A stretch of DNA of 43,615 bases from Chloroflexota bacterium (GTDB lineage: Bacteria > Chloroflexota > Chloroflexia > JAMCWQ01), in contig JAMCWQ010000098.1 in the NCBI GenBank assembly GCA_023480825.1, positions 1 to 43,615 on the forward strand. Direction: 5' to 3'. Numbering within the stretch: the first letter of the stretch is position 1; each line of letters opens with the position of its first letter. Made by a program: the position numbers and the translations under genes. This document shows, one piece after another, positions 8,501-27,352 of the stretch. Below the pieces are notes generated by a model that saw only the letters and a program-made list of their open reading frames with translations, ran no database searches and had not been told where the DNA came from.

Positions 8501-8857
8501 TTTGGCCCTCCCGGTCTCGATCAGGTGGGCTATCCGCTCCACGATGACCATGGTCTTGCCCGTCCCTGGCCCCGCCACGATGCGTAGAGCCCCCCCGGTG
8601 TGCCGCACCGCCGCCAGTTGGTCGGGGTTGAGGAGGGTGGACGTGCTGAATCCATTGCGGGGACAACCGGCCCGCTCGGCCATGCCATCGCAGTCGGTGT
8701 TTACCGGTGAGCGTAGGGGAGGTGCCTTGTGCCCTCCCGTTTGGCCCGGCTCACGGTTGTCTGTTGCTTCCCTGCTGGTAGCGTGAGGGGCCGTCTTCGT
8801 AGGGGAAGGGCTTGTCCCTTCCCGTTCGCTAGTCGTCGCCTCGTCTTCAGGATTCAT
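5594..8857 (-). CDS. UvrD/Rep-type SF1 helicase fused to a Fe-S PD-(D/E)XK nuclease (second of pair)
   Basis: A 1087-residue motor-nuclease. Motifs: Walker A AGPGTGKT (K101), motif II LVDEYQDTN, motif III VVGDDDQSIHGFRG, TLHQAKGLEWDCVFLPGL, motif VI ERRLFYVGLTRAK. The C-terminal RecB-like nuclease has GRIDRID, IDYKT (D960, K962) and QLAIYA. Fe-S cysteines lie near C836 and at C1072, C1075 and C1081. It is paralogous to the gene at 1960-5190. The ATG at 8857 is 3 bp after the transposase stop. About the first 58 residues (low-complexity, Thr/Pro/Ser-rich) are encoded by two REP-like hairpins (8713-8738, 8799-8823), so the original start may be the ATG at codon 59 (8683, MAERAGCPRNG). Homology to the helicase family begins at about LLNPDQLAAV. 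Confidence 0.9.
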   Translation of the reverse strand: MNPEDEATTSEREGTSPSPTKTAPHATSREATDNREPGQTGGHKAPPLRSPVNTDCDGMAERAGCPRNGFSTSTLLNPDQLAAVRHTGGALRIVAGPGTGKTMVIVERIAHLIETGRAKPENILALTFSRKAAEETRNRVALRLQISYSSLAVSTFHGFCFGVVRDHFQDLGYKNPPELLVATEQWVLVKDLLKSQLPELWPHYRDVLGKDGFVQEVFDFILRAQENLHTPSTLRQETNREDWPEIIDFYAYYLDHVRSHGFIDYGGVIARTVDLLEEGSAALAELRERFRYILVDEYQDTNYAQDQIVFRLQQGRGNICVVGDDDQSIHGFRGATVENILSFDQRYGAETIELRTNYRSCRGIVETARSVIERNAYRLAKNLISAGEGNDPIEKPVECRFFPHYADEANWIAGKIIELAGPEQRYNQVAVLFRSVKGPLAGLIRDELQAAGVPVRLSGGTGELYNHPLVRTVLDLMAFLAAEEVDSAGLVRLLQSDLCGAGPFAIRLLQREAARARKSLYEYLQGELEDSAAGAADIEKAKTFTGHLAFLRERKLDSPAEVAFAIWTTIPYFAGLCLARYKNTAEEIARREALANISRFIEDVERFSGRQPETGVSAYLVMVEEGRFADVPLADPVDQLTNLVNIMTLHQAKGLEWDCVFLPGLSEGAFPGRYSPKEIADPVLLQRMEDAGQTREQRYYEEERRLFYVGLTRAKSRCYLSYSSTAAPSKDNSAPSRFFEEAAASPDAEKISEEPAEFVRPLNAREAEVFFRRGLAADDSLVRAQGVYGILALDGAMASQPKCWWENTETTDCPNSPCPSGRLYLSASQLALYRLCPLRYKFQYFWRLAATTSPQAERGRVMHAVLESYHNPEGPQEASEERLLKLLDQCWRDDAFPFRPIAKQARKKSEDQLRRYFLKYPYEDTLRVETQFTFPFQSHTMTGRIDRIDRLPEGELEIIDYKTSSSVMSRAEAEEDLQLAIYALAAESCPELSQLGVVSLVSYLYLGVESLGADWKRSYSPGEGIREALSGKLQRLSDGILDELFPPHSRIVETWGGQLDLKEMEWLKKNPCRTCEWTWLCTDGEEE
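8713..8738 (+). repeat. REP-like palindrome with GTAG head, inside the helicase N-terminal codons
   Basis: Plus strand: GTAG (8713-8716), stem GGGAGG (8717-8722), loop containing CCTTGTG, stem CCTCCC (8733-8738). Same plan as the copy at 8799-8823, with a different, compensated stem. Confidence 0.6.
8799..8823 (+). repeat. REP-like palindrome with GTAG head and perfect 8-bp stem
   Basis: Plus strand: GTAG (8799-8802), GGGAAGGG (8803-8810), loop CTTGT (8811-8815), CCCTTCCC (8816-8823). It lies within the first codons of the helicase ORF, next to the RAYT gene. The GTAG head followed by a hairpin is the established architecture of bacterial REPs acted on by RAYT transposases. Confidence 0.7.
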
Positions 8858-8860: not shown

Positions 8861-9346
8861 TCAGAGCTCATAGACCAGAGATCCAGCATAGCGGTAGCCT
8901 CTCCAATCCTCGGCCAGCCCACGGCGGACCGGGTTGTTTAGGACATAGGCTATCGCTTCCCCGAGGTCCTCGTCGTCGCGGAGAAAGTGATCCCAAAAGC
9001 TTCTTTGCCAAAATGCGCCGGTTACTCCGCATTGCCAAGATGCTCTCTGGGCAAGATTTTTGTACTGCCCGACAAAGGTTATGATGTCACATGTGGGTGA
9101 TGCCTCAGTAACGAGATGCACATGATCGGGCATGACACAGTAAGCATAGACTGGGACGGCCGTTCGCTCGGCATGGGCCGACAGCGTGTCGACAGCAGCT
9201 TGCGCCACTATTGGTGATCGAAAGACAGGAAGCTGGTCTTTGACGGCTATCGTTATGGAGCAGATAGCGCCGGCAATCCGATATGTATCCTCATCGAGTC
9301 TGATTCTCCTACGGTTGGGAAGGGATACATTATGTTCGTGTTGCAC
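8861..9346 (-). CDS. REP-associated tyrosine transposase (RAYT, Y1/IS200-like)
   Basis: A 161-residue single-domain HUH transposase. The metal-binding HUH motif is HVH (75-77) in YCVMPDHVHLV. The C-terminal half has FWQRSFWDHFLRDDEDLGEAIAYVLNNPVRRGL, the RAYT signature. Tyr134 in AYVLNNP aligns with the catalytic tyrosine of TnpA-REP proteins, so the active site looks complete. It is a single gene without flanking IS ends, surrounded by GTAG-headed hairpins that are its likely substrates. It is co-directional with the ATPase upstream and the helicase 3 bp downstream, so it has become part of a repair gene run. Confidence 0.9.
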   Translation of the reverse strand: MQHEHNVSLPNRRRIRLDEDTYRIAGAICSITIAVKDQLPVFRSPIVAQAAVDTLSAHAERTAVPVYAYCVMPDHVHLVTEASPTCDIITFVGQYKNLAQRASWQCGVTGAFWQRSFWDHFLRDDEDLGEAIAYVLNNPVRRGLAEDWRGYRYAGSLVYEL

Positions 9347-9514: not shown

Positions 9515-11677
9515 TCACCCTCCTGCCGCGGGTAGGGTGATCACCTGGTCGGCGAAGTGATCGTATTGGTCTGAGCAGGTGAAGAGCAGAACCTGGTACC
9601 CTTGCGAAATCTCCTTCAGCAGCTCCATGGCCCTCTGCCTCCGACCGGCGTCAAAGGTAACAAATGGATCGTCGAGCAGAATAGGCGGCTTGCGGCCGTT
9701 CAGGACCAAGCGCATCAGTCCCAACCGGGCAGCCAGGTAGAACTGGTCGATGGTCGCCCGGCTGAGAGCGGTGATAGGCACCGGCCCGCCACTGTCCGGA
9801 GAGACGACGCTGATAGACAAGGTGTTCCGGTCGATGGACATGGGGGATAGAAAAGCGCGGGCCATCCTCTCTACATGTTGCCCGACTTCCGCCTCCAAGG
9901 CCACGGTGGCGGATACCATTGTCTCCGAGTGCGCCTGCCGGATTCCTTCGATGGCCAGCTCCACAACGCGCTTGCGCCGCATGAGGATGTCGAGCCGGTG
10001 TTGTAGCTCTCCCGCTTTCTCCTCCAGCGTGGTCAGCTCCTCGGGGTCCAACTTCGCGGTGTCGATGGCCCCTTTCAGACCCGAGATCTCGTCGCGCAGG
10101 GAGCTTTGCTGCCTTTGGAGTCCACTCAAGTCCATTTTCAGCCGGCCCAGAACACCGGCCGGGTCGGAGTCCTGTCCGGCGGCTCCACTGCTCTCGTCGA
10201 AAACGTAGCGCCGTATTGGCTGGAGGAGCGTCGACCGCAACTGCAGCAGGGCGTCCCGCCGCTGCTGGATCTCCAGAGCTAATAAGGAATGCTTTTCCTC
10301 GAAGCGCTTCCAAGGCGACGCCCAGGCAGCCGGCGGGGTATCTGGAGGTATTCCAAGGGTAGCGGCAAGCTCGGTGCGCGCCGCCGCCAGAGTGGCAGTA
10401 GCGCCCAAATAGCGATTCCGGCCCTCGGCCAATTCATTTGCAGACGAGAACCCGTACTTCTGTAGCACTTGGTCCAGCGCCGTCCTCGTGCCAGCCACGG
10501 CGCGCCGGTGCTCGTCGAGCTCGCTTTCCAGGGCCCGGGCCACCAGGTATTCTCGCATCTGCAGCGCCGAATAGACGACGCCGCAGAGCCCGGCGATGGC
10601 TAGTATTGCCAGGTAAGGGGCGGCGAAGAACCCGGCCATCCCGGCGACTAGCAGGGCGATGCTGACGGCCAGTAGAGCCGGGGCGATCCGCCCCCGCCCG
10701 CCACCCAGTTTCCGGTATCGCTGCTCCTGCTTTTCCAGCAATTGCTCCTCGGCCTTGAGGCGGGCGGCCAAATCACCTGCTTGGGAGAGATCGGGCTCTG
10801 CTTTGGCGAAGGCTGCCAGCTCCTCGAGCTCCCGGGTCGCGCTTCGTATGCGGTCGCACTGCTCGGTGGCGAGCCGGAACCGGGCATATTTCTCCATCAA
10901 TTGCCCAATTTCGTCCTTCAGGTCGACGGCTCGCCGGTTGGCTTGCAGCATCTCTTCTTGGTGAGCTGTCTCCTCTTCGATGCGGCTCATTTCCTGGAGC
11001 TTGTCCGCCAGCCGGGCTTTCTGGCCGTCAAGGGCGGCGAGTTGGGCGGAAAGCTCCTGGCGACGGTTTTCCACCTGGTCCAGCTCATCCCGGAGCTGTC
11101 TTACCGGACCGGGGTTCTTCGCGGGAGAAGACAAACCCACGGAGAGAGAGCGCAAATACTCCTCCAGCTTCTGGACCGCCGAAGACGAGCTTACGTCGTT
11201 CCCTCCGGTGACGGTCGCTTGCAGCCGGTCACTCAGCTCTCGCCGCCCTTCGGCAACATCCGGCAGCTCGTCGTGAGCCACGCAGGCGGTGCTGGAAAAT
11301 AAGGCTTTCGTGGAGCATCCAAGCCAGTCTGCCAGCCGGGAGGCTATAGCCTTGGCATCGGTCAAGGGGGTGGGCAAAGCCTGCCCCGATAGCGACTGGA
11401 CGTGATTTTCGAAATCACGCTGCAGCAGGTAAGTCTCGCCATCCACCTCAAAATCCAGCGCCAGCTCATACATGTGCTCCGACTGCCATTTCATCAGCTC
11501 GCGCAGCGTCCGGTTGCTCGATTTCGCGTTCTCGAAGAGGCAGGTCTGGATCGCGGCGTGGACAGTGGATTTCCCGGCCTCGTTGGGACCTTTGATGATG
11601 TTGATGCCCGGCCCGGCGGAGGTTTCCAACTCTCCGAAGCGCTTGAAGCGTTTTGCAGTTAGGCGGCGGATTATCAC
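9515..11677 (-). CDS. SMC/SbcC-like AAA ATPase (YhaN-type), partner of the SbcD-like nuclease
   Basis: A 720-residue protein. Its N-terminal ABC half has Walker A GPNEAGKST (about 31-39). Long Arg/Glu/Gln-rich coiled-coil segments occupy about 170-310 and 380-560. Between them are two hydrophobic stretches (ALLAVSIALLVAGMAGFF and YLAILAIAGLCGVVYSAL), as in YhaN. The C-terminal half has an ABC-signature-like LSRATIDQFYLAARLGL and Walker B PILLDDPFVTFD. At 720 aa it is shorter than SbcC/Rad50. It overlaps the SbcD-like gene by 4 bp (ATGA), so the two are coupled and probably form an SbcCD/Rad50-Mre11-like or YhaO/YhaN complex. The membrane segments suggest membrane association (inference). Confidence 0.88.
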   Translation of the reverse strand: MIIRRLTAKRFKRFGELETSAGPGINIIKGPNEAGKSTVHAAIQTCLFENAKSSNRTLRELMKWQSEHMYELALDFEVDGETYLLQRDFENHVQSLSGQALPTPLTDAKAIASRLADWLGCSTKALFSSTACVAHDELPDVAEGRRELSDRLQATVTGGNDVSSSSAVQKLEEYLRSLSVGLSSPAKNPGPVRQLRDELDQVENRRQELSAQLAALDGQKARLADKLQEMSRIEEETAHQEEMLQANRRAVDLKDEIGQLMEKYARFRLATEQCDRIRSATRELEELAAFAKAEPDLSQAGDLAARLKAEEQLLEKQEQRYRKLGGGRGRIAPALLAVSIALLVAGMAGFFAAPYLAILAIAGLCGVVYSALQMREYLVARALESELDEHRRAVAGTRTALDQVLQKYGFSSANELAEGRNRYLGATATLAAARTELAATLGIPPDTPPAAWASPWKRFEEKHSLLALEIQQRRDALLQLRSTLLQPIRRYVFDESSGAAGQDSDPAGVLGRLKMDLSGLQRQQSSLRDEISGLKGAIDTAKLDPEELTTLEEKAGELQHRLDILMRRKRVVELAIEGIRQAHSETMVSATVALEAEVGQHVERMARAFLSPMSIDRNTLSISVVSPDSGGPVPITALSRATIDQFYLAARLGLMRLVLNGRKPPILLDDPFVTFDAGRRQRAMELLKEISQGYQVLLFTCSDQYDHFADQVITLPAAGG

Positions 11678-12792
11678 CGGAGCACCTCCCGGCCTTGGAG
11701 AAGGGCGACCCCCAGCCGCAGCGCTTCTTCATATTCAGAGGCCTCTCCGGCGCTCGCCGAGGCAATGCGTTGTTGCATGAGCCGCACATAGCGGCCCACC
11801 ACTGTCTCTGGAGCGAAAGAGTTGATATCGACCTCGCTCAGGGCGGCATGGGAATGGTCCACTATTCTCAGAGCGAAGAACTCATCCTCCAGCGCTCTCT
11901 CCATTTCCTCAACATCCAACTGAAAGTCGAGAGCCTGCAATCCCTCGAGGCTGACCTCCAGTATGAGGCTTCTATCGGCCAGAGCGGCGATGGACTCGCG
12001 AACCGCGGCGGGCGATATTGCCGTATCCAGGGGTATTCGCAGGCGCTCGAAACGGCGCGACCCAACTTGAACTGGCTGGATAGAGACATCGCCGCTACGC
12101 TCGATATTCACAAGGACCACCTTCCCCGCTCCTGCTTGATCGAGATCGATCACTTCCGGCGCGCCGGAGTAGCAGGCTTTGGTGGAGCCACAGGTGAATT
12201 CGGAGAAGGAGTGCCAATGGCCAAGGGCCAGGTAATTCAGGCCGCTGGCTGCCACCTCCTCCCGGGTGACCATTAGGCTGTCACCTTCGACCCGGTCCGG
12301 AATATGGAACGAGCAATGCGCGATCCCGATTTGCAGCGCCGCCTCTTCCAGACGAAGGGACCGCAGGGGGCTGACCCCGGCTCCATCGGGCGGAAGCAAG
12401 CCGTATACGACGGCATCCAGCTCGGGAAGACGTAGGGTACTGGATTCGCCAGCGAGGATCCTGAGCGCCGGGCAGTGCCCGGCGAAATCGTAGGCATTGT
12501 AGACGGAACGCGGTTCGATGGGGTCGTGAGTGCCGGGAATAAGGCAGGTAGTGATGCCGGCATCTCCAACCTTCCTAAGAATTCTTATTGCTTCTTGCAC
12601 ATAGAAGGGAGGCGGGTTGTTGGAATCGAAGAGGTCGCCGGCAATAATGAATAGGTCGGAATGCTGGGCGATGGCCAGGCTGGCGACCTGCTCGAAGGTG
12701 CGCAACAGCTGGCGGCGATGCTCCTGTCCCTTGTCCCCAAGGCTGAGAAATTTGGCGCCGAGATGAACGTCGGCGGTATGGAGAATCCTCAT
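11674..12792 (-). CDS. SbcD/YhaO-like metallophosphoesterase (DNA repair exonuclease)
   Basis: A 372-residue calcineurin-like phosphoesterase of the Mre11/SbcD/YhaO group. Metal-binding motifs in order: HTADVHLG (6-13), AGDLFDS, PGTHDP (in place of the usual GNHD), an AHCSFH segment, and ALGHWHS. The C-terminal half is the capping region. It is the first gene of a minus-strand run, and its stop overlaps the ATPase start by 4 bp. The predicted Mn-dependent exo/endonuclease activity acts on blocked or hairpin DNA ends with the ATPase. This could bear on the many hairpins in this genome (inference). Divergent from polX, with 252 bp between them. Confidence 0.9.
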   Translation of the reverse strand: MRILHTADVHLGAKFLSLGDKGQEHRRQLLRTFEQVASLAIAQHSDLFIIAGDLFDSNNPPPFYVQEAIRILRKVGDAGITTCLIPGTHDPIEPRSVYNAYDFAGHCPALRILAGESSTLRLPELDAVVYGLLPPDGAGVSPLRSLRLEEAALQIGIAHCSFHIPDRVEGDSLMVTREEVAASGLNYLALGHWHSFSEFTCGSTKACYSGAPEVIDLDQAGAGKVVLVNIERSGDVSIQPVQVGSRRFERLRIPLDTAISPAAVRESIAALADRSLILEVSLEGLQALDFQLDVEEMERALEDEFFALRIVDHSHAALSEVDINSFAPETVVGRYVRLMQQRIASASAGEASEYEEALRLGVALLQGREVLR

Positions 12793-13044: not shown

Positions 13045-14769
13045 ATGTCCAACGCGGAGATCTCCGAGATCCTGAACCGCATCGCCGAGTTGCTGGAGAT
13101 CAAGGGGGAATCGCGCTATCGCATCTACGCCTACCAGCGCGCCGCCGAAGCAATAGCCAGCGAGCCGGTCGATGCCCGAACCTTGATGGAACAGGGCAGA
13201 CTTGAGAATGTGCCGGGCATCGGGAAAAGCATCGCCGCCAAAATCACCGAACTGCTGAAGACCGGCCACTTAAAGTATTATGAGGACCTGCAGGCCGGTT
13301 TGCCCAGCGCCATAGTGCACTTGATGGAGGTCCCCGGCATCGGCCCCAAGACGGCCATGAGGCTCTACAATGAGCTGGGTATAACCTCCGTTGCAGAGCT
13401 GGAGGCGGCGGCTAGAGCCGGTCGAATAAGCGGCCTGCCGGGCTACGGTCCCAAAACGGAAGAGAACATCCTTCGCGATGTCCACAACCTGCGGCTGCAT
13501 GAGGAGCGCAGGCTGTTGGGAGAAGTGCTTCCGGTGGTCGCGGATATGATCGCCGCGCTCCGGTCCGTTCCCGGCATACGCAATATCGTGCCGGCGGGGA
13601 GCATCCGGCGAATGGAGGAAACCGTCGGGGACATCGACCTCGTAGCCACTGCCGGCGACCCGGCCAAAGCCGTCCAGGCTTTTGTGAAGTTGCCGCAGGT
13701 GCGCGAGGTGCTGGGGCAGGGCCCAACCAAGGCAACGGTTGTCCTTCGCAATGGCATACAGGCGGACATACGGGTTGTTCCCGATGAGGCCTTCGGCTCG
13801 CTGCTGCAGCACTTCACCGGCAACAAAGCGCACAACATCATCCTCCGGGAATACGCTAAGTCCAAGGGCTATAGCATTAGCGAGTACGGGATCACCGACC
13901 TCAGGACCGGCACGATCAAGCCCTATGCTGACGAAAATGAGGTTTATGAGTCTCTGGGGCTGCAGCCCATGCCGCCGGAGATCCGGCTGGGCACCAATGA
14001 AATAGAGCGAGCGGCCAGGCACGATATTCCCCGGCTGGTGACACTCGCCGACATCAAGGGCGACCTGCACGTCCATTCCGACTGGAGCGATGGAGTCGCC
14101 TCGATTGAAGACCTGGCTCGAGGCGCCAAGGCCATGGGCTACGAATACATAGCCATCTGCGATCATTCGGCGAGCCTGGCCATCGCCAACGGACTCAGCG
14201 CGGAGCGGCTGCGAAAGCAAATAGACACCGTTCGCCGGCTGAACGAAGCGGATCCCTCGTTCCGTATCCTCACCGGCATCGAGGCCAATATTCGCGGCGA
14301 CGGTACAGTGGAGGTGCCCGAGGAACTGCTGGGCGAAATCGATGTTGTGGTGGCCAGCATTCATTCAGGGCTCAGCCAGTCTTCTGAGAAGATAACGACC
14401 CGGCTGACCAAGGCTATCCATCAACCCTTTGTGGCCGTAATCGGCCACCCCACGGGCAGAATTCTCGGACACCGCGAGCCCTCAATGGTCGATCTGGGTG
14501 CGATCTTCGCCCAAGCCGCCGGGCAGAGAACTGCCATGGAGATCAATGGGATTCCGGACCGGCTGGACCTGCGGGACGTGCAGGCTCGCCAGGCGATGGA
14601 GGCGGGGGCCATTCTCTCCACGAATTCCGACGCCCATTCAGTTGACCAATTATCGCAGATGCTGTACGCTGTGGCAGTAGCGCGGCGTGGATGGCTCGAA
14701 GCTCGCCACATTTTGAACACCAAGCCGCTGGGCGAGCTGCTGGAATGGCTGCGAGCCCGCCGCAAGTGA
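13045..14769 (+). CDS. polX: Family X DNA polymerase / 3'-5' exonuclease with PHP domain
   Basis: 574 residues in the standard bacterial PolX layout. An N-terminal HhH 8-kDa-like domain has VPGIGKSIAAKI and VPGIGPKTAMRL. The Pol-beta palm has GSIRR...GDIDLV (D196, D198) and a third acidic residue, D241, in QADIRVV. The C-terminal PHP domain starts GDLHVHSDWSDG (HVH 342-344) and contains ICDHS, TGIEANI, ASIHSG, IGHPTGR and NSDAHS, so the metal ligands are present. Role: base-excision gap filling and 3' end processing. The ribosome site GGGGAGGAG lies just before the ATG. The next gene, another repair nuclease, starts 37 bp downstream, so they are probably one operon. Confidence 0.95.
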   Translation: MSNAEISEILNRIAELLEIKGESRYRIYAYQRAAEAIASEPVDARTLMEQGRLENVPGIGKSIAAKITELLKTGHLKYYEDLQAGLPSAIVHLMEVPGIGPKTAMRLYNELGITSVAELEAAARAGRISGLPGYGPKTEENILRDVHNLRLHEERRLLGEVLPVVADMIAALRSVPGIRNIVPAGSIRRMEETVGDIDLVATAGDPAKAVQAFVKLPQVREVLGQGPTKATVVLRNGIQADIRVVPDEAFGSLLQHFTGNKAHNIILREYAKSKGYSISEYGITDLRTGTIKPYADENEVYESLGLQPMPPEIRLGTNEIERAARHDIPRLVTLADIKGDLHVHSDWSDGVASIEDLARGAKAMGYEYIAICDHSASLAIANGLSAERLRKQIDTVRRLNEADPSFRILTGIEANIRGDGTVEVPEELLGEIDVVVASIHSGLSQSSEKITTRLTKAIHQPFVAVIGHPTGRILGHREPSMVDLGAIFAQAAGQRTAMEINGIPDRLDLRDVQARQAMEAGAILSTNSDAHSVDQLSQMLYAVAVARRGWLEARHILNTKPLGELLEWLRARRK

Positions 14770-14806: not shown

Positions 14807-16570
14807 TTGGGCGACGATTTTGCCCGGAGTCTGACAGGCCATACGCTCTGGTCTCCCGCCGCCGGGACCGCGGAGACCGGACCGGAACTGATGGTGCCCA
14901 AGGGGCTGCGAGGCCAACCTTTCGTGGTGGTGGATCTAGAGACCACAGGACCGAGTGCGCTGCTGGACCACGTCATCGAGGTAGCGGCCCTACGCGTCGA
15001 GGGAGGCCGGGTGGTCGACCGTTTTGAGAGCCTCGTGGACCCCGGCGTCTCCATCCCGCCATTCATCACCTCACTTACCGGCATAGATGACGACATGGTG
15101 CAGGGCAAGCCCAGGTGGCACGAAATCGCGCCCTCGTTATTCGCCTTCCTCGCCGGGGCGATCTTCGTGGCTCATAACGCGGGATTCGATCACGGCTTCC
15201 TGAAACAGGAGTTTCGCCGGCTGAAAATGACCTACGACAGCCAGCGGCTGTGCACCGTCCGCTTGTCCCGGCGCGTCTTTCCGGGGCTGGGCAGCTACTC
15301 GCTGGACTCGATTATCTCCCACCTCGGCATCAACTGCTCCAGCCGCCACCGGGCGGGCGGCGACGCCGATGCGACCTGTGAGCTGCTGCTAAGGATACTG
15401 TCGGAGATGTCCGGATTTGGCATCGAGGAGGCGGAGGATTTGCTCCGCTTCCAGGAGACGCCCAGCCGGAAATGCGCCGATATGCGCGATGGCGAGCGTC
15501 TGGTGGCCCATCTGCCTTCCGCCTGTGGCGTGTACATGATGAAGGACGAGCAGGGCCATGTCATCTACGTCGGCAAGTCCACGAACATTCGCCGGCGGGT
15601 GCGTGAGCATTTCCGGGCAGAGACCAACGGGCAGCGGCGGCTGCGCAAGCGCCTGCGCTTTGTCAAGCAGGTGGACTACATCGAGACCGCTTCGGAGCTC
15701 GAGGCGCTGCTTGTGGAATCCCGCCTTATCAAGCACTGCCTGCCGGAGGGCAACAAACTCCAGCGAGATTACGAATCCTACCCCTTCATCAAGATCAATA
15801 TCAATGAGAAATTCCCGCGGGTGGAGTTCACCCGCGAGCCGCAGGACGATGGCGTCCGCTACTTCGGGCCCTTCACGCAATCCTCTCTTGTCGACGCCGC
15901 GGTAGACGCCGTGCGGGATGAATTCCGCCTGCGCACCTGCGCCCGGCGCTTTGGCCAGAAGGAAGGTAGCTGCGCCCGGCGGGATATGGGCCGCTGCCTG
16001 GCGCCGTGCTCCGGCGAAATCAGCCGGGAAGAGTACATGGAACGGATCGAAGAGGCCATGCGTCTTCTCTCGGGCCACGGGAGCACCTATCTACAGACCA
16101 TGGAAGAGCGGATGAATACCTTTGCCGAGGAATGGCGCTTCGAAGAGGCGGCCGCGCTTAGGGACCGCATAGCCGCTTTGCGGGCCCTGGTGCAGGTGCA
16201 AGAGAAGCTCAACTCCGTCGGCTGTTACGACCTCGTGGCGCTGATGCCCTCGGCGCGGTCCGGTTGGATCCAACTATTCCTGATCCGCCAGGGCCGGCTG
16301 GCGATGCAGGTGGCCTGCCCGCAGGACATCGAGCCGGAAGACGTGCGAAGGCTTTTGCACCAAGTGTATTCGCCGGAGCACCGGACCATGGCCATCTCCA
16401 AGGACGAGGTGGACGAGATGCATATCATCGCCGACTGGCTGCGCCGCGGCGGCGAGGCCCTCCGCAAAATCCCCATTCGCCCCGAACCCGAAAGTCTGGA
16501 AGAGGTGGTGGAAGAAGTGATCCGCGAGCTCAAGAAGGGTGATGCCGCGCTGGCGGAGACTGGCGACTGA
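14807..16570 (+). CDS. DEDDh exonuclease fused to the N-terminal (GIY-YIG) half of UvrC
   Basis: 587 residues starting at TTG, with AGAAGGGA just upstream. ATG at 14891 (codon 29) is an alternative start. Residues 30-200 form a DnaQ-like exonuclease: DLETTG (D43, E45), HNAGFDHGFL, HRAGGDADAT. Residues about 240-330 form a GIY-YIG nuclease (GVY 241-243, YVG 254-256, then KSTNIRRRVREH). Next come the UvrC-type Cys region (CARRF...SCARRDMGRCLAPCSGEI) and a UVR motif (FAEEWRFEEAAALRDRIAAL). The UvrC C-terminal RNase-H-like nuclease and HhH domains are absent, as in Cho-like proteins. This fusion is a known family. Predicted role: incision and trimming in nucleotide excision repair. An mCpol gene follows 33 bp after its stop. 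Confidence 0.92.
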   Translation: MGDDFARSLTGHTLWSPAAGTAETGPELMVPKGLRGQPFVVVDLETTGPSALLDHVIEVAALRVEGGRVVDRFESLVDPGVSIPPFITSLTGIDDDMVQGKPRWHEIAPSLFAFLAGAIFVAHNAGFDHGFLKQEFRRLKMTYDSQRLCTVRLSRRVFPGLGSYSLDSIISHLGINCSSRHRAGGDADATCELLLRILSEMSGFGIEEAEDLLRFQETPSRKCADMRDGERLVAHLPSACGVYMMKDEQGHVIYVGKSTNIRRRVREHFRAETNGQRRLRKRLRFVKQVDYIETASELEALLVESRLIKHCLPEGNKLQRDYESYPFIKININEKFPRVEFTREPQDDGVRYFGPFTQSSLVDAAVDAVRDEFRLRTCARRFGQKEGSCARRDMGRCLAPCSGEISREEYMERIEEAMRLLSGHGSTYLQTMEERMNTFAEEWRFEEAAALRDRIAALRALVQVQEKLNSVGCYDLVALMPSARSGWIQLFLIRQGRLAMQVACPQDIEPEDVRRLLHQVYSPEHRTMAISKDEVDEMHIIADWLRRGGEALRKIPIRPEPESLEEVVEEVIRELKKGDAALAETGD

Positions 16571-16573: not shown

Positions 16574-16590
16574 TTGGCACATCTCTTGCG
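16574..16590 (+). promoter_or_regulatory. Sigma-54-like -24/-12 element upstream of mCpol
   Basis: TTGGCAC with TGGCAC at 16575-16580, five bases, then TTGC at 16586-16589, the canonical -24/-12 spacing. A start site about 12 bases downstream would fall at about 16601, making the mCpol transcript nearly leaderless; no Shine-Dalgarno precedes the ATG at 16604. Elements of the same form lie at 22180 and 32394. Confidence 0.45.
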
Positions 16591-16603
16591 TCCACTACTC
16601 GCC

Positions 16604-17023
16604 ATGAAAGCGTATGTGTACATCGACGGCGACGGTGTGGGAGACAAGCTCGAAGGATACATCATCAACAACGACCTCCAGAGAGCGGCGGAGCTCAGCA
16701 CCCGAATAAACGAGAACCTAAAGGAGATGATCGCCACTCTCCTGGCAAGAGATGTGGAGATCTTCTTTGCAGGCGGAGACAACGTCTTCGCTTGCCTGGA
16801 CCTGGACCGCGAGCTACTGCACCGGCTCTTGAACTCATTCCTCAATTGGACGGGCATCACGGCTTCCGCCGGGGTGGGGACGACACCCGCCGAAGCCTTC
16901 CTGGCCTTGCGGGCCGCCAAGGCCTTGGGTGGTGGCCGGCTCATTGTCCGTGGACTGGACGGCAGCGAAGAAAGAGACCGCACCGGCCAGGCCATCCATG
17001 CGGGGGCGGACGAGGCGCCGTAG
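16604..17023 (+). CDS. mCpol (minimal CRISPR polymerase) domain protein, solitary
   Basis: A 139-residue single-domain protein from the ATG at 16604. A TTG at 16574 would add ten residues, but family members begin as here, MKxYxYIDGD. Palm-domain nucleotidyltransferase features: YIDGDGVGDKLE (D8, D10), then VEIFFAGGDNVFA (57-60, GGDN where Cas10/GGDEF-like enzymes have GGDD or GGDEF), then GITASAGVGTTPAEAFLALRAAKALGGGRLIV. This fits the mCpol family (Burroughs and Aravind), minimal relatives of the Cas10 polymerase predicted to make cyclic nucleotide signals and used in Panoptes-type defence. The first metal-binding Asp of the GGD motif is kept and the second is Asn. No TM effector gene is adjacent: upstream is the DEDDh-UvrC fusion, and downstream is a flavin reductase on the other strand. 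Confidence 0.8.
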   Translation: MKAYVYIDGDGVGDKLEGYIINNDLQRAAELSTRINENLKEMIATLLARDVEIFFAGGDNVFACLDLDRELLHRLLNSFLNWTGITASAGVGTTPAEAFLALRAAKALGGGRLIVRGLDGSEERDRTGQAIHAGADEAP

Positions 17024-17109: not shown

Positions 17110-17196
17110 AAGTCCCCCTGATAAGGGGGATTTAGGGGGTTTTATGCCTGTGCTAAGCCCTAACCCCCCTAGCCCCCTCTTGTCAGGGGGGACTTA
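17110..17196. repeat. Nested C5/G5 hairpin element, copy 1
   Basis: AAGTCCCCCTGATAAGGGGG at the left and CCCTCTTGTCAGGGGGGACTT at the right form the outer inverted repeat. An inner pair, TTTAGGGGGTTTT and TAACCCCCCTA, brackets about 20 bases. A related element lies at 23157-23236 with the same CCCTGATAAGGGG / CCCCTTATCAGGGG ends. It lies between the convergent mCpol and flavin reductase genes, where it could also terminate transcription. Confidence 0.7.
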
Positions 17197-17271: not shown

Positions 17272-17838
17272 TCACTTCCCCTTCAGCTTCTTCCCGATCT
17301 CAAATGCCTTGCCGAGGTGCTCGCCGATACGCCAGTAGTTGTCGTCATGGTAGGTGAAGATTATGGGCTGCATCTTCAGCGGGTCCGGTAGCTTGTTGGT
17401 GAGGTAGCGCTCTTCGCTATAGACTGCGACGATTTCTCCGATGAATGACTCGTGCCTCCCCAGTTGCAGCGTCTGGATCAACCGGCACTCGAGATTCAGG
17501 GCACATTCCTCGATCATCGGCGCCGTCTCCAACTTGCCATAGAAGACCTTGAACAACGACGACTTGTCCACCTTGTGGCCGGACACCAGGCCGCAGTAGT
17601 CGGTAATCTCCGCCATCTCCGCTGTGGGAATGTTGACACTGAACGTCCCGTTCTCGTGAATGCCCCGGTTTGTGTAATGGGGTTTGTTGCTGGAGACGGA
17701 GATCGCCGGCGGCTTGTCGTCCATAATGCCACAGTAGGCGACCGTTAGAAACGTCGGCTTGCCATCGACGTTGGCTCCCACCAGGACGGTGGGCATCGGG
17801 TAGAGAAAAGTATTCGCGCCGATCTCGATTTTGGCCAT
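17272..17838 (-). CDS. Flavin reductase-like (FMN-binding split barrel) protein
   Basis: 188 residues from the ATG at 17838, which follows a strong GGAGGAG; an in-frame extension to 17877 has no ribosome site. The sequence MAKIEIGANTFLYPMPTVLVGANVDGKPTFLTVAYCG...ISVSSNKPHYTN..I.ENGTFSVNIP is typical of the flavin reductase/FlaRed family (DIM6/NTAB type), which binds FMN and transfers electrons from NAD(P)H or forms an oxygen/NO-reactive flavoprotein. Full length. A TATAAT lies on the minus strand at 17891-17896, about 50 bases upstream, without a clear -35. It stands alone, convergent with mCpol. Confidence 0.88.
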   Translation of the reverse strand: MAKIEIGANTFLYPMPTVLVGANVDGKPTFLTVAYCGIMDDKPPAISVSSNKPHYTNRGIHENGTFSVNIPTAEMAEITDYCGLVSGHKVDKSSLFKVFYGKLETAPMIEECALNLECRLIQTLQLGRHESFIGEIVAVYSEERYLTNKLPDPLKMQPIIFTYHDDNYWRIGEHLGKAFEIGKKLKGK

Positions 17839-18453
17839 GAGAAGCTCCTCCGTAAAGTTGGCGGCCGCGCGCCTCAAGATTCTGCACCTTATTATAATGC
17901 CTTCTCGCCGGGAGTGATGACCCTGCCTGGGAACGAGATACCACTTCTGGCCAACTTTCTGGCTTCACGAAGGGAGAAAAGCCTCTTGTCATTCTGAGCT
18001 TCCGTAGGCGGTGGGGGGCCGCCGGGCATCAGGAATGACATCTCGATGTCATGGAAAGGGCCCGTTCTTCCTGACTAAAGAACAGTTACTGCCAATAAGA
18101 GGGCCCGAAGAATCTAGTGCCTGGTGGTCAAACAACCTGAACTAGATTCTTCACTTCGCTCCTGCTCTCAGCCTCCAGTCCTCCTGGTCGGCCCTATCGC
18201 TCATTCCAGTATGTGCCTACCTAGCCGGCCAAACGCTCGTTCAGAATGACAAATCCGTCTCGTCCCATCACTCCCAACCTCTTCCTTCGTCCTTCTGGGG
18301 AAGAACTCGAGAGCCTGTCTCGAGCGAAGCGAAGGAGGCGGGGTTTACGGGTGAGGCGTCAGGGCACGAGACCACGACCTACGGAGACTTGGCCGACAGG
18401 GCCGTTGGCCACCATATTTGACTTCTTGGCGCACGGGGCCGAGACGAGCCGCC
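17839..18453. other. 615-bp non-coding, hairpin-dense region
   Basis: No credible gene. It holds a likely promoter for the flavin reductase (17880-17900), an inverted pair TGTCATTC/GAATGACA (about 17986-18040), a GGGCCC-bounded segment with GTTCTT/AAGAAC (18058-18106), a 150-bp dispersed element (18101-18250), and CTAC (18454-18457) preceded by an ACGAG-loop hairpin that resembles a decayed REP. Confidence 0.6.
18101..18250 (-). repeat. 150-bp dispersed element, copy A (inverted relative to copy B)
   Basis: The two copies match over their whole length in opposite orientation, 18101-18250 against 41001-41150, from GGGCCCGAAGAA.CTAGT to GCTCGTTCAGAATGAC. Each contains an internal inverted repeat; here GAAGAATCTAGT (18107-18118) and ACTAGATTCTTC (18141-18152) are perfectly complementary. 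There is no coding capacity. The structure suggests a non-autonomous mobile or MITE-like unit. Confidence 0.75.
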
Positions 18454-19299
18454 CTACGGGCTTTGCCGCCGGTCCTGGTAGGGCACGGGGATGAACTCCA
18501 CGGAGGGTTGGCCGGATTGGGGTTGCGGGTAGAGACTCATTAGCCGGTACACGGTGCGCGGCACTTCTTCTCTGACGTTCAAACCCATCTCCTGCAGCGC
18601 CGGGAGAGTCAGGGGGTAATCGTGGGTCCAGCGCCCGGAAGTAAGCACCGTGGCGATCTCGGCGGCCCTGGCGTCATCCATTTTGCCCTTCAGGAGAAAG
18701 AGAGTGAAGTCACGGATTTGCCGGATGGCCTTAGTGGAGACATCCACCATGGCGATCGTTTCGTCGGAGAGCCGGTTCCGCTCTTTCAGTTCCATGACCG
18801 TGAGCAGCGAAGCGGCGGGAAGATAGGAGCCGCGAAGAGCGATTTGGGGGTCCAAAGGGCCGAGCACGGCGTTGGGATCCATTATGATCTCATCAGCGGC
18901 CAGCGCCACCAGCGTTCCGCCGGACATGGCGTAGTTTGGCACGATCACGGTGACCAGCGCCGGGTGCTTCTTCAGGGCGTAGGCGATCTGCTGCGCCGGC
19001 AAGACCATTCCGCCGGGCGAGTGAATGATCAGGTCGATGGGGGTGCTCTCCGGTGTGAGGCGAATGGCCCGCAGCAATTGCTCGGCGTCCTCCATGTCGA
19101 TAAACCTGATGAGAGGCACGCCGAGGATGGAGATGCGCTCTTGGCGGTGAATGAGCGTGATAACGCGGGAGCCCCGTTGCCGCTCCAACTGCTGGATCAA
19201 GCGCCGGCGGGAGTTGTGTCGCATCTGGTGCGAGATGCTGGGTATCAGGAAGGATAGTATCAAGAGAGCGATCAAGACGGTGATAGCGATTTCGATCAT
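18454..19299 (-). CDS. SDH/SppA-like Clp-fold membrane serine protease
   Basis: 281 residues from the ATG at 19299, preceded by GGGAG; an extension to 19383 looks spurious. An N-terminal membrane helix (IAITVLIALLILSFLIPSI) is followed by a Clp/crotonase-fold protease of the serine dehydrogenase proteinase (SDH) family: LIIHSPGGMVLPAQQIAYAL, then the nucleophile region NYAMSGGTLVALAADEIIMDPNAVLGPLDPQI, and late SGRWTHDYPLT. Predicted role: cytoplasmic-face degradation of membrane proteins or signal peptides. It is divergent from pspA, with HtpX encoded nearby, so it fits a membrane quality-control group. A one-mismatch -24/-12-like element lies on its strand at 19379-19394. Confidence 0.88.
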   Translation of the reverse strand: MIEIAITVLIALLILSFLIPSISHQMRHNSRRRLIQQLERQRGSRVITLIHRQERISILGVPLIRFIDMEDAEQLLRAIRLTPESTPIDLIIHSPGGMVLPAQQIAYALKKHPALVTVIVPNYAMSGGTLVALAADEIIMDPNAVLGPLDPQIALRGSYLPAASLLTVMELKERNRLSDETIAMVDVSTKAIRQIRDFTLFLLKGKMDDARAAEIATVLTSGRWTHDYPLTLPALQEMGLNVREEVPRTVYRLMSLYPQPQSGQPSVEFIPVPYQDRRQSP

Positions 19300-19378
19300 G
19301 GGGGGTCTCCCTTTGCTTGCGGCCTGGCAATCCGGCAGCCCGGATGGCCCCGGCCGCGCCATTCTGGATGCAGTGAAC

Positions 19379-19394
19379 TGCATGCACCGTGCCA
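19379..19394 (-). promoter_or_regulatory. Possible sigma-54-like element upstream of the SDH protease
   Basis: On the minus strand TGGCAC, five bases, ATGCA: one mismatch from TGGCAC-N5-TTGCW. It lies about 80 bases upstream of the protease ATG. Weak on its own. Confidence 0.25.
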
Positions 19395-19398
19395 GAGA

Positions 19399-19436
19399 TT
19401 GACTTTACCCTTCCCCTATACGATACTATGATAGTA
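19399..19436 (+). promoter_or_regulatory. Sigma-70-like promoter with overlapping palindrome, upstream of pspA
   Basis: TTGACT (19399-19404), a 17-base spacer, then GATACT (19422-19427). The palindrome TACTAT-G-ATAGTA (19424-19436) overlaps the -10 and start region and could be an operator. Confidence 0.45.
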
Positions 19437-19490
19437 AGAATAAATATGGCTGTTGATTCACGTTAGTGGCCCCATATGCGGAGGTGAATG

Positions 19491-20219
19491 ATGGGAATAA
19501 TGTCACGGATGTCAACTGTGTTCCAGGCCAAGATTAGCAAGCTGCTGGAACGGGCGGAAGACCCCATGGAGACCCTCGATTACTCTTACGAGAAGCAGCT
19601 CGAACTGCTTCAGCAGGTCAAGCGCGGCATCGTGGAGGTGGTTACCTCCAAGCGCCGGCTGCAGATGGAAGAGGCTCAACTGCAGCAGAACGTGGACAAG
19701 CTGACCTCTCAGGCTCAGCAAGCAGTCGCCGCCGGCCGCGATGATCTGGCCAAACTCGCCCTTCAGCGCAAGCAGGACACTGTGCAGCAGATTCAGGGTC
19801 TAGACCCGCAGATTGCCAGCCTCGAGGAGGAGCAGAATCGCCTCACCGCCGCCGAGCAGCGGCTTCAGGCCAAGGTGGAAGCTTTCCGCACCCACAAAGA
19901 GGTCGTGAAGGCTCAGTACTCCGCCGCTGATGCCCAGGTGAAAATCGGTGAATCGGTAACCGGCCTCTCTGAGGAAATGGCCGATATGGGTCTGACCATA
20001 CAGCGGGCGGAAGACAAGACTCAGCGCCTGCGCGCCAAGGCCGGAGCGATTGACGAGTTGGTGGCCGCCGGCACTCTGGAAGATATCACCGGTAGCCAAG
20101 ACTCCATCGATCAGGAGTTGTCCAAGATCACCGTTTCTAAGAACGTCGACGACGAGCTGGCAGCTATGAAAAAGCAAATCGCGGCTCCCGACCAGAAGCA
20201 GCTCAAGGAGGGCAAATGA
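19491..20219 (+). CDS. pspA: PspA/IM30 family phage-shock protein
   Basis: 242 residues, nearly all alpha-helical coiled coil with the family N-terminus MGIMSRMSTVFQAKISKLLERAEDPMETLDYSYEKQ. ATG codons occur at 19488, 19491 and 19500. The second gives the conserved MGI(F/M)SR start; the ribosome site GGAGGTGA ends at 19487, so 19500 is also possible. PspA forms ESCRT-III-like oligomers on the inner membrane under envelope stress. Its stop overlaps the next ATG by 4 bp (ATGA), coupling it to PspAA. There is no PspF/PspB/PspC neighbour, so this is the PspA-PspAA-PspAB-HtpX arrangement seen in some Gram-positive-type and Chloroflexota genomes. Confidence 0.93.
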   Translation: MGIMSRMSTVFQAKISKLLERAEDPMETLDYSYEKQLELLQQVKRGIVEVVTSKRRLQMEEAQLQQNVDKLTSQAQQAVAAGRDDLAKLALQRKQDTVQQIQGLDPQIASLEEEQNRLTAAEQRLQAKVEAFRTHKEVVKAQYSAADAQVKIGESVTGLSEEMADMGLTIQRAEDKTQRLRAKAGAIDELVAAGTLEDITGSQDSIDQELSKITVSKNVDDELAAMKKQIAAPDQKQLKEGK

Positions 20220-20497
20220 TCGCACGCATCTCTTCGGAAGGGCAATACCGGCTGGACGACGGCGACGTAATTAAGAAGCTCGACGAGATCGACGACAAGC
20301 TTGTGGATGTATGTGCGAGGGATGATGAGGCGGAGTATCAGCGCCTCTTCGGCGAGATGCTCACGCTCGTTCGCAAAGAGGGACATCCCGTGCCGGTGAC
20401 CGAGTTGGTGAAGTCGGACGTGATACTGCCGGCTCCAGGCACAACCCTGGCCGAGGCCAAAGAGATATTCCGGGGCGAGGGAATGTTCGCCTGCTAG
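20216..20497 (+). CDS. pspAA: PspA-associated protein PspAA
   Basis: 93 residues: MIARISSEGQYRLDDGDVIKKLDEIDDKLVDVC, then an acidic central part and SDVILPAPGTTLAEAKEIFRGEG. This matches the small PspAA family that follows pspA in many genomes, including the conserved 'LP.p..tl.Ea...f.geG' tail. It is translationally coupled to pspA (ATGA at 20216-20219). Its TAG stop (20495-20497) overlaps the stop of the convergent pspAB on the other strand in a shared CTAG. The molecular role is not established; it probably works with PspA. Confidence 0.88.
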   Translation: MIARISSEGQYRLDDGDVIKKLDEIDDKLVDVCARDDEAEYQRLFGEMLTLVRKEGHPVPVTELVKSDVILPAPGTTLAEAKEIFRGEGMFAC

Positions 20498-21063
20498 AGC
20501 GGCATGTCCCAGAGGGGATACCAGCGCTCCAGCTCTTTCTCGATCGGCAACTCCCGCTCCATCACCGAGCGCATGCGTAGCTCGGTGGCGTTGTCACGCT
20601 GTTTCTTTCCCTCTATTGGGGCAAAGGGGTAGAAGCTGCCGCGCTTGTAGTTGTAGATCCAGTAGACCGGCTGTTCGTCCTGGAAGAACTTGAAGGCCGC
20701 GGCCAGCAACTGGTCGCGGAACCCGTGTTCCTGGAGCGTGAGGCTTACCACGTGGACTGTGGAGACCAGGTCCTCGAACTGTGGATCGGTCAGCACGATC
20801 CATTGGAAGCCAAAGCTGTCCTTTAGCTGCTCGACCTTGGTTTCCGTTTCCTTCCCGCTTATGGCGAGCAGGTTGGTGAGTTCCTGGTCAGTCTCCTGGA
20901 AATCAGTCGAGGTAATCGGGCGGAAGGTCACTCCCGCCCGTTCCGATGGCTTGAGTCCGAGGTTCTCGGTCAGGGTTAGATATGCCGTCGATATGGCGAA
21001 AAGCTGGTTGGGTTGCGACTTAACGGGCTTTGTCCGTCCGAGAAGCTCGTCGAATAAACTCAT
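20494..21063 (-). CDS. pspAB: PspA-associated protein PspAB
   Basis: 189 residues from the ATG at 21063, which overlaps the htpX stop by 4 bp; an in-frame extension to 21360 lies inside htpX and is spurious. The sequence MSLFDELLGRTKPVKSQPNQLFAISTAYLTLTENLGLKPSERAGVTF, with FGFQWIVLTDPQFEDLVSTVH and QPVYWIYNYKRGSFYPFAP, fits the PspAB family linked to HtpX. No membrane helix or known catalytic motif is visible. Its function is unknown beyond association with the Psp/HtpX membrane-stress genes. Confidence 0.85.
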   Translation of the reverse strand: MSLFDELLGRTKPVKSQPNQLFAISTAYLTLTENLGLKPSERAGVTFRPITSTDFQETDQELTNLLAISGKETETKVEQLKDSFGFQWIVLTDPQFEDLVSTVHVVSLTLQEHGFRDQLLAAAFKFFQDEQPVYWIYNYKRGSFYPFAPIEGKKQRDNATELRMRSVMERELPIEKELERWYPLWDMPL

Positions 21064-21971
21064 TGCCCCTCCATCTGCTGCTCCAGCTTCTTCAGCCGCT
21101 CGATCCTCTTTTCCACCGATGGATGAGTCGAGAAGATTTCCGTGAGGGATGAACCACTGACCGCCGGGACAATGAAGAAAGCGTTCATCGGCTCCGCCTG
21201 GCGCAGGTCCTGCGTCGGGATGCGGCTCATGACCCCGCTGATCTTCAGCAAGGCCGCCGCGAGCTGCGACGGCGCCCCGGTGATAATGGCTCCTCCCCGG
21301 TCCGCGGCGTATTCCCGATAACGGGATAGCGCCCGGATCAAGAAGTAGCTGATCACCCACACCAAGATCGAAGCTATGTACACCAGGATGATTATCTGCC
21401 CGCTGTTGTCCCGGCCGCCCCTCCGGCCGCCGACTCCTCCAGCCAAACCAGCGAACATGAACGACCGCATCATCAAGAAAGCGAGCGTCGAGAGGAAGCT
21501 GGCGATCGTCAGGACCGCCATGTCGCGGTTCTTGATATGAGTCATCTCGTGAGCCAGCACGGCCTCGAGTTCCGGCCCATCAAGGCGGTCCATGAGGCCA
21601 GTTGTAACGGCCACCACTGCGCTCTTCGGCCCGCGGCCGGTGGCGAAGGCGTTCGGCATCGAGGTGTTGACGATGGCGACCTTCGGCTTGGGCAGGTTGG
21701 TCATCTGGGCCAGCCTATCGATTATTCCGTGCAACTCCGGCGCTTCGGAAGGCTGAACGATCTTGGCGTGCATCGACCATAGAACCAGCCTGTCGGAATA
21801 GTAGTACTGGATGAACAGAAAGACCGCGGCGATCAAGACCAACGGCAAGAGTCCGACGCCGATGTACCATAGAACCGCCATGAACGCGGCGTAGACCGCG
21901 AACAGCAGGAACATGGTCAAAAACATTCTAATCGTTAACTGTGTATCTCTACCGTACCATTTGCGGCGCAT
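21060..21971 (-). CDS. htpX: HtpX-type M48 membrane zinc metalloprotease
   Basis: 303 residues. Two N-terminal membrane helices (RMFLTMFLLFAVYAAFMAVLWYIGVGLLPLVLIAAVFLFIQYYYSD) precede the catalytic domain with VLAHEMTHIKNRD (zinc HExxH) and the downstream Glu in YREYAADRGGA. Two further hydrophobic stretches (VLTIASFLSTLAFLMM and IIILVYIASILVWVISYFLI) lie between them. The end carries FSTHPSVEKRIERL, typical of HtpX. Role: degradation of misfolded inner-membrane proteins. The ribosome site TAGGAGGGC precedes the ATG. It is the first gene of a two-gene operon with pspAB. Confidence 0.95.
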   Translation of the reverse strand: MRRKWYGRDTQLTIRMFLTMFLLFAVYAAFMAVLWYIGVGLLPLVLIAAVFLFIQYYYSDRLVLWSMHAKIVQPSEAPELHGIIDRLAQMTNLPKPKVAIVNTSMPNAFATGRGPKSAVVAVTTGLMDRLDGPELEAVLAHEMTHIKNRDMAVLTIASFLSTLAFLMMRSFMFAGLAGGVGGRRGGRDNSGQIIILVYIASILVWVISYFLIRALSRYREYAADRGGAIITGAPSQLAAALLKISGVMSRIPTQDLRQAEPMNAFFIVPAVSGSSLTEIFSTHPSVEKRIERLKKLEQQMEGQ

Positions 21972-22178: not shown

Positions 22179-22195
22179 GTGGCACCGAGTTTGCT
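22179..22195 (+). promoter_or_regulatory. Sigma-54-like -24/-12 promoter of the cupin gene
   Basis: GTGGCAC with TGGCAC at 22180-22185, five bases (CGAGT), TTGCT at 22191-22195: full match to TGGCAC-N5-TTGCW. A start near 22206 would leave a short leader carrying the ribosome site AAAGGAGGTG. Confidence 0.6.
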
Positions 22196-23156: not shown

Positions 23157-23236
23157 GCCCCCCTGATAAGGGGGGTAGGGGGGTTACGGCTTTGGGTAGG
23201 CACAAAACCCCCTCAGTCCCCCTTATCAGGGGGAAG
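23157..23236. repeat. Nested C5/G5 hairpin element, copy 2
   Basis: CCCCCCTGATAAGGGGGG at the left, CCCCCTTATCAGGGGG at the right, with inner GTAGGGGGGTT / AACCCCCTC arms. Related to 17110-17196. Confidence 0.7.
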
Positions 23237-23280
23237 TGACAGGAACCCCTAACCCCTAAAGGGGGATGTAGGCTGAAGGC

Positions 23281-23961: not shown

Positions 23962-26900
23962 TCAGACCAGCCCTTCGCTACAGACGATCTTCGGTGTGGC
24001 CTTGCTCGATTCGCCGTTCTGGTGGCGGACCCAGTCCTTCATGTTGTGCTGCAGGTAAAGGTTCTTCAGGTGCTCGTATAGAGCTTCGCCGTTCACCCCG
24101 TTTCGCCGCAGGAGATTCAGCTCCTTCTTGACGGCTTCGGTTGGGGATGCCCGCAGCGCTTGGTCCAGCAGGTTGATCATCTCCTTGCGGGCCTCGTCGT
24201 CCTCATTGGCGTACATTATGTGGAGTTCGCGCAGGACGTATTTCTGGCCTGAGGTGTGGGAGACGCTGAAGGACTTGTCATTCTGCCGCTGCTGCACGTC
24301 CGCATCGAAGGCGTGCTTCACCTTCATCACCGCCGCGTTGTAGCCGCCGGGCCGCGGCTCGCTGGGCGTGTAAGGCCCGCACTTGATCGTCCCCAGCACC
24401 CTGGGTATATCCTCGGAAACGATCTCGCCGCTTTCCCCTACCAGGTACATCTTCAGGTACCTATCCGCCTGGCAGAAGACGAACATGCCCTTTTGGCTGG
24501 AGTACTTCGCCGAGCGGATGCCGTCCCGTAGGCCGGCGATGCGGGCGTATTCTTCGGGGTGGTCCCGCCTCAGCTCGCGCATTATCTCCTCGGCCTCGTT
24601 GAGGTCCAGGAAGTCCGCCTCATCCTCCCACATGCTGAGCTGGCCGCCGTTCTTCTTTTCGTAGATAGCGTACATCACCTCTTCATTCAGCCGCTCGCTG
24701 ACGTCGAGTATTTTCGCATCCTCCCCGATGGTGTCATGAATCTCTTGGATGCGGTTGTGCAGCTTCTCGTGCAGGTGCAGGTTCTGCTCGATGCCCAGCT
24801 CTGGCAGGAAGTTGAACCCGTACACCACTTCGTTCTCCGTTCCAATGCGGTCGATGCGGCCGAAGCGCTGGATCAGCCGGACGGGGTTCCAGTGCAAGTC
24901 GTAGTTCACAATCTTGTCGCAGTCCTGCATGTTGAGGCCCTCGGCCAGCACGTCGGTAGCGATTACCGTGTTCAGCTCCGGGCCGGGGTAGAACTCCCGA
25001 ATCTCGGCGTTGGCTTTGGGAGCGAAGCGGGCGACCACGCGGTCCTTGCTCTTCTCCCCACTGAAGATCACGTCGATGTCCTCTCTCTTGCCGTCCGGGT
25101 TCAGGTTATCGTAGAGGTAGCGGGCGGTGTCAGCGTACTCCGTGAAGATCAGCCGCTTGCCATCCTTCAGCGGCGATTGGGCCAGCCATTTCTTCAGGGT
25201 CTGAAGCTTGTCGTCCGCCTGCGGCGTTATGGGCTGGACCAGAGCGAACATTTCCTTGTAAAGCCGGATGTCCTGCTCGATATGGGCGCGGAGCCGCTCG
25301 ACGTCGAAATCTTCGATCCGGTACTTGCCGGACACTTCCGCCAGAGCATCCAAGAGGTCCGTTTGGTCATCGAAATCGGACTCGTACAGTATCATTTGCG
25401 CTTCTTCGCCGGCCGGGACGATGCCGGCATCGAGGGCCGCCACGAACTTCTCGTGAATGGCTTGCTGGCGGAGGACGGTTTCGCGGAAGGCGTAGACGCT
25501 GGATTCGAACCGCTTGAACAGGAGGATGCGGATCAGCCCCCGCAGGTTGAATCCGGCCCGCTGCAGACCGGCGTAGGGCTCCTTCTTGCGCTTGTCCGGC
25601 AGGACGTAGTTGTAGAGACCGTAGCGGGCGTAGGTCAGCTCATTCGGGGCGAAGTTGTTCGCAGCGTTTTGCCGCTCTTTGCCCATGTACGCCCGCAATT
25701 GCCGGTATATCCCCTGGTAGGTGCTTTCGATGCTGTATTCGATGGTCTCCAGCCGGCGGGCGGGGAAGAACTGGTGCTTGCCGCCGACCTCCACGTAGGC
25801 CTTCTTCTTGCCGGAGAGGTAATCATCGAAATCCGCTTCGGTCAGGTCCTTGTGAGTGCCGGCGTCTTTGCCGTACCAGCGCAGTATGTGGTTGCGGGTG
25901 CGGCGGATCAGGACGTTGGCCAGAAGGTCCGGCAGCTTGCGCTGTCCCTGCTCGATGAGCTTGAAGTACTCCTTTAGGTCTGCCGGCGAGATGGGCAGGT
26001 CCGTCTTGTCTTCGGGATGAAAGAGCTTCATCTGGTTGTAGACATCCAACGCCGACTTGTTCCGCGGCGTCGCGGTGAGGAAGCAGCATTTCTTGTCGCC
26101 GGCGCTCAGGAATTCCTGCAAAAGCTTGTAGCGCTGCGTGTCCTTATGGCGGAAGTTGTGGCTTTCGTCCACCAGCACGAAATCGCGGTCCCGGTACTTC
26201 TCAGTCCACAGGATGTTGGAGCCATCACCTTCCTGCAGATAGCCCATGGAGAGGACGCGGGCATGCAAATCGTAGCGCTCGTCATAGCGCTCCCACATGT
26301 TCACCAGCGGCGGGGGGCAGATGATGAGCGGGCGGGCCCGGCTGATCCGCTCGAAATGCTTCACGATGGCCGCGCCGATGTAGCTCTTGCCCAGACCGAC
26401 AACGTCGGCAATGAAGACGCCGCCGTAGTCCCGGATGATGCCCACCGCCTGCTTCACGGCCACCTTTTGGAACTCGGCCAGCTTGCGGGTGATCTCGTCG
26501 TCCCAGAGGATCTCCGGTTTGTCCGTGCCCTCGATCCGGTCATGGACGAGAGTGTAGAGCGTCTTCATGTAGATGTCGTACGGTGTCACCGGGGCCATCG
26601 CCCACGATTCCCGCATCTCGTACATCAGGGACTCGTCGAAATCCTGAGCATCGTTCCACAGCTCGTCGAACCAGCGGCAAAGCTCGTAGTAGTTGTCATT
26701 GCCGTGGACCACGACGTTCATCTCCGTGTTGTGGCTGAGGCCGGAAAGGGAAAGGTTCGAGGAGCCGACCACGGCGATGCCCTTTTCATCCCGCTGGAGC
26801 ACATTGCCGAAGAGGTCGTAGACGGGGCCGTAGCCGAAGATGTAGGCTTTGGCGTGCATGCGCCCCTTCGTATAGACGCGGACTTTGAGCCGCTTCTCGG

Positions 26901-27285: not shown

Positions 27286-27352
27286 AAAAGTTCTCCTAGG
27301 AGTCGATTTGCGGATGAGCCTTCGGCCTTACAAAATAACCTTGATATCCATA

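Follow-up and report, generated by a model that had tools for sequence, protein, structure and literature searches.

Must a minimal CRISPR polymerase (mCpol) be constitutive, and must it stand next to its effector, in order to work? The enzyme was characterised in 2025 as a source of decoy cyclic dinucleotides, which hold a toxic effector off. The question is raised by a contig of a Chloroflexota bacterium (GenBank assembly GCA_023480825.1, contig JAMCWQ010000098.1), analysed here over its full 43,615 nucleotides (the window), in which an mCpol gene follows two DNA-repair genes and has no effector gene as a neighbour. Solitary, apparently intact and probably under an inducible promoter, this mCpol offers a small test case for signalling in trans or for a free antitoxin.

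Identity of the mCpol protein

The open reading frame lies on the forward strand between an ATG at 16604 and a stop at 17023, and encodes 139 amino acids. A preliminary reading made from the letters alone (the sequence-only reading) had placed the gene at 16574–17023; the frame and stop of that span hold, but its start does not. Position 16574 is an in-frame TTG that would add 10 residues without counterpart in the relatives. Since the alignments show that related proteins begin just ahead of the first strand (M-x-Y-I-x-I-DGDD), the ATG at 16604 is the likely start, and the gene proper is 16604–17023. The motifs YIDGDGVG, FAGGDN and SAGVG..PAEA..ALRAAK are all present.

By profile matches, PDB sequence matches, predicted fold and phylogeny, which all agree, 16604–17023 encodes a bona fide mCpol, as the sequence-only reading had proposed. 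The protein matches the mCpol model of Pfam, the search that had been suggested as a check, over residues 4–113 (PF18182; 87.3 bits, E = 1.2e-24, cut-off 26.4 bits), as well as NCBIfam NF033576 (mCpol; 55.9 bits, cut-off 40) and the PADLOC profile CARF_HEPN_mCpol (1.4e-11). Its best PDB sequence matches are the Panoptes synthase OptS (9mnr and 9nwn) at about 2e-11 (best E = 2.4e-11). Structure prediction, likewise suggested, gave an AlphaFold2 model from six sequences with a pLDDT of 84, for which Foldseek ranks 1–6 in the PDB are all OptS chains (top match 9pd0_C; E = 5.9e-10, target TM 0.84). Cas10 comes next (E = 1.1e-05), ahead of GTP cyclohydrolase III and GGDEF proteins, which lie near 1e-4. 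The OptS structures (9mnr, 9pd0, 9nwn) and the window protein share a single-domain palm fold and a similar length, with about 30% identity in structural alignment. A tree built from five Cas10 palms together with nine mCpols splits the two groups with support of 100/99. Within the mCpols, the window protein has no firm place, including among the effector classes, and its nearest relative is L037 at 36%.

The second palm of Cas10/Csm1/Cmr2 is a homologous domain that also has a GGD core, whereas the window protein is one free-standing palm domain of 139 amino acids, and the tree and scores place it with mCpol. That it is some other palm-fold enzyme, either a one-domain protein like GTP cyclohydrolase III or a piece of Cas10, and no cyclic-dinucleotide synthase, is highly improbable. 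Such an enzyme could explain the match to the Pfam GCH_III model (27.3 bits, cut-off 21.3), the 40.2 bits obtained with Cas10 palm2 and the presence of 2qv6 among the Foldseek matches. However, the mCpol score is far higher, OptS leads the Foldseek matches by several orders of magnitude, Cas10 palms fall outside mCpol in the tree, and a paired mCpol, L085, has a weak GCH_III match as well. As assignments for the window protein, the Cas10-fragment and GTP cyclohydrolase III readings were discarded in light of the scores, the fold and the tree.

The GC content of the mCpol gene (0.61) and its GC3 (0.76) are the same as those of the neighbouring genes, so the gene is not a fresh arrival. Long residence, together with retained catalytic residues, argues for selection, as far as sequence can indicate. 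Relatives were not found by a single-protein scan of genome contigs and viral contigs, by a two-sequence alignment scan of viral contigs, or by tblastn of phages and plasmids. An alignment of five sequences was too diverged to serve for pattern scans, and the searches yielded no close homologue of the gene.

Catalytic residues and the GGDN motif

In KpOptS, metals are held by D6 and D57, and adenine is contacted by S30 and N34 (PMC12657218, PMC12657230). The window protein aligns D8 and D59 with the former pair, and S32 and N36 with the latter, so that the catalytic aspartates and the base contacts are common to both. Homologues with random neighbours and with D8, D10 and D59 lost had been named beforehand as a sign against the sequence-only reading; in the window protein all three residues are retained.

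The sequence-only reading had also remarked that GGDN keeps the first catalytic aspartate only, and had raised the possibility of a degenerate member. The motif is as described, but the remark misleads, as a single aspartate is normal for mCpol. The OptS structures carry AADG where the window protein has GGDN, and GGDN also occurs in L085 (genome G822), an mCpol located just before a CARF-TM gene. GGDN is therefore compatible with an active enzyme, and the suggestion of degeneracy falls away. Judged from these comparisons, GGDN mCpols are probably active.

Effector partners of related mCpols

Coupling of mCpol to an effector is reported to be the rule, with CARF-2TM accounting for 40% (PMC12657218). 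An adjacent effector was found in all eight assessable relatives (three CARF-2TM, two CARF-HEPN and three S-2TMbeta); a ninth relative, in G027, runs into the end of its contig and was left out of the count. CARF-HEPN-like genes are located upstream of mCpol in L002 (genome G051) and in Oscillatoria (L074). CARF-TM genes are located downstream in Laspinema (L075) and in L085, where the gene is open as far as the end of the contig, which truncates it (PADLOC CARF_m9--CARF_TM, E = 1.8e-40). In L037 (genome G211), the nearest relative at 36–39% identity, a CARF-2TM-like gene lies downstream and has a frameshift at a poly-T run; the split gene spans 9976–10742 of that locus, and the break is either an assembly error or real. 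In Pseudomonas, Acinetobacter and Rahnella (L076–L078), mCpol is followed by two-TM proteins of 200 amino acids, of which those of L076 and L077 scored as Cap15 receptor domains.

None of these partners accompanies the window mCpol. Its locus has no adjacent OptE (S-2TMbeta), no CARF-2TM gene and no adjacent or fused CARF-HEPN, and the 248 bp between mCpol and the convergent flavin reductase-like gene (17272–17877, reverse strand; PF01613, E = 8.1e-27), which bounds the locus downstream, hold no likely gene. A tblastn search of the window for effector remnants (CARF-2TM, CARF-HEPN and OptE) with eight effector queries gave matches at chance level only, the best having E = 0.056 over 16 residues. 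We also searched the genome's own assembly, which is 51% complete, for the three effector types. In this available half, no Cap15 domain (PF18153) was found with a model that picks up the OptE of L076 at 4.6e-19, and neither the CARF-2TM profile nor CARF-HEPN gave a match. The earlier statement that no effector is encoded near mCpol thus holds for the window, and none was detected in the 51% of the genome available.

The absence of a neighbouring effector is unusual for mCpol. As it stands, the locus differs from Panoptes in having no adjacent OptE, and does not belong to that system. It differs likewise from the mCpol/CARF-2TM pairs (PADLOC CARF_m9--CARF_TM; L037, L075 and L085), which include its nearest relatives by identity, and from the mCpol/CARF-HEPN pairs (L002 and L074; PADLOC CARF_HEPN_mCpol), with which it has the mCpol domain in common.

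One possible explanation is that the gene is a relic: with its effector gone, the mCpol left behind would no longer serve any function, although its frame is still open. The absence of an effector or remnant from the window and from the available genome points this way, as do the pairing of every assessable relative and the frameshift-split effector of L037. We regard the relic explanation as doubtful, as the ORF is intact, the catalytic and base-contact residues are retained, the composition resembles that of surrounding host genes, the predicted fold is confident and the gene has a sigma-54-like promoter of its own.

Neighbouring DNA-repair genes

Two genes for DNA-repair proteins precede mCpol on the same strand: a PolX-family DNA polymerase with a PHP domain (13045–14769; NF006375, 544 bits, cut-off 426) and a DEDDh exonuclease fused to a UvrC N-terminal (GIY-YIG) domain, of the PRK07883 type (14807–16570). 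They are separated from one another by 38 bp, and the stop at 16570 lies 33 bp from mCpol, the distance that had been given before. The sequence-only reading took this arrangement as attachment of mCpol to a repair operon and proposed a neighbourhood survey for a conserved link to UvrC.

The survey did not bear this out. With the query used, mCpol was found in 3 of 158 genomes of the class, this one included, and only here does it lie beside UvrC. Of 101 class genomes, 42 (this genome counted) have a DEDDh-UvrC homologue, at 31–36% identity. In the 29 neighbourhoods read, no homologue had an adjacent mCpol, and PolX was absent from the surrounding 1.5 kb or so in each. Among the class genomes compared, which include no other member of this family, the linkage seems confined to this genome, and the repair neighbours are therefore best read as incidental.

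The spacing and common strand of the three genes could also suggest that mCpol supplies a sigma-54-induced signal in a response to DNA damage, as a partner of PolX and DEDDh-UvrC, and a probable sigma-54 element directly upstream would fit such induction, in contrast to the constitutive synthesis reported for OptS (PMC12657218). This proposal is very unlikely in view of the survey; moreover, a promoter of its own speaks against co-regulation, and no CARF, SAVED or Cap15 domain is reported by Pfam in PolX or DEDDh-UvrC.

Sigma-54-type promoter element

A further probable difference from OptS lies in the promoter. Directly upstream of the window mCpol, at 16575–16589 (forward strand), is a −24/−12 element of the sigma-54 type (TGGCACATCTCTTGC) that matches TGGCAC-N5-TTGC exactly. 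The window has three exact matches, all on the forward strand; taking every other gap length between TGGCAC and TTGC from 0 to 15, it has one match altogether. Promoter statistics were also drawn from 183 kb of the genome's other contigs, a sample that served this purpose only: N5 gave five matches there, and the 20 alternative spacings averaged 0.85. RpoN is present in 80 of 150 relatives from the class and was not found in the 51% of this genome available. The enrichment at this spacing and the presence of RpoN in relatives indicate that the genome probably uses sigma-54, and the element noted earlier upstream of mCpol is probably real, judging from sequence statistics.

The two other exact elements are found at 22180–22194, before a cupin gene with a good Shine-Dalgarno sequence, and at 32394–32408, roughly 200 bp upstream of a 1342-aa ORF that has a weak multicopper oxidase match and fn3. 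The three may form a regulon.

The predicted transcription start of mCpol is near 16601, 3 nt ahead of the ATG, and the mRNA would thus be near-leaderless. No Shine-Dalgarno sequence precedes the ATG at 16604, whereas polX, pspA and the cupin gene each have one; its absence fits a near-leaderless message. A near-leaderless, regulated transcript would be a consistent reading of these features; so short a leader is also the chief ground for doubting the sigma-54 reading at mCpol. An exact 12-nt inverted repeat (CACATCTCTTGC) links the promoter element (16578–16589) with a second site, within the mCpol reading frame (16745–16756), and may be due to chance.

A further reading, which we think unlikely, is a stand-alone mCpol that sigma-54 switches on and that is not made constitutively. 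It would either pass its signal in trans to a receptor encoded elsewhere or serve as a free antitoxin, neutralising the effectors that mCpol-toxin elements bring in.

A probable synthase separated from its effector

We favour the explanation that the gene encodes an intact cyclic-dinucleotide synthase that has become unlinked from its effector or been deprived of it, and judge its probability to be roughly 0.55 on the sequence and model comparisons. The conserved residues suggest that the enzyme would join two ATP to make 2',3'-c-di-AMP or a similar cyclic dinucleotide, with D8 and D59 holding metals in a site that would span a dimer, as in KpOptS. Its nearest relatives suggest descent from an mCpol–effector pair, most like the type paired with CARF-2TM. 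The effector would either have been lost or lie in the half of the genome that the assembly does not cover. OptS alone leaves growth unharmed (PMC12657218). In Panoptes the mCpol side holds the toxic effector back and does no harm by itself, which is why an mCpol could persist with no such neighbour. A sigma-54 promoter of its own would probably drive the gene and yield a near-leaderless message, so that read-through from polX and uvrC would not be the only source of transcript, and the DNA-repair genes beside it would be incidental.

Other features of the window

On the reverse strand, about 7 kb from mCpol, a probable defence cassette (23962–31397) comprises a PLD/HKD-SNF2 helicase (PADLOC C3a139, 4.9e-80), a type IIG restriction enzyme-methyltransferase (2e-113) and a 316-aa protein (27353–28303) without a Pfam or PADLOC match, whose GC content of 0.47 is much below that of its surroundings. 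At 18454–21971 lies a likely membrane-stress cluster. Along with PspA/IM30 and a PspAB-like protein, it encodes a ClpP-like protease of the SDH type, an M48/HtpX peptidase and a small protein. The stretch 1960–8857 encodes a pair of neighbouring helicases of the UvrD type, both of which carry a PD-(D/E)XK nuclease domain. They are adjoined by an IS200-like (Y1) transposase gene (8861–9346), after which SbcCD-like genes follow at 9515–12792. Just downstream of mCpol lies an imperfect palindromic repeat of the AAGGGGGATTTAGGGGG type (17110–17195), with related units at 23208–23224 and 23259–23275; the repeat unit occurs in three copies in the window, against 0.15 expected.
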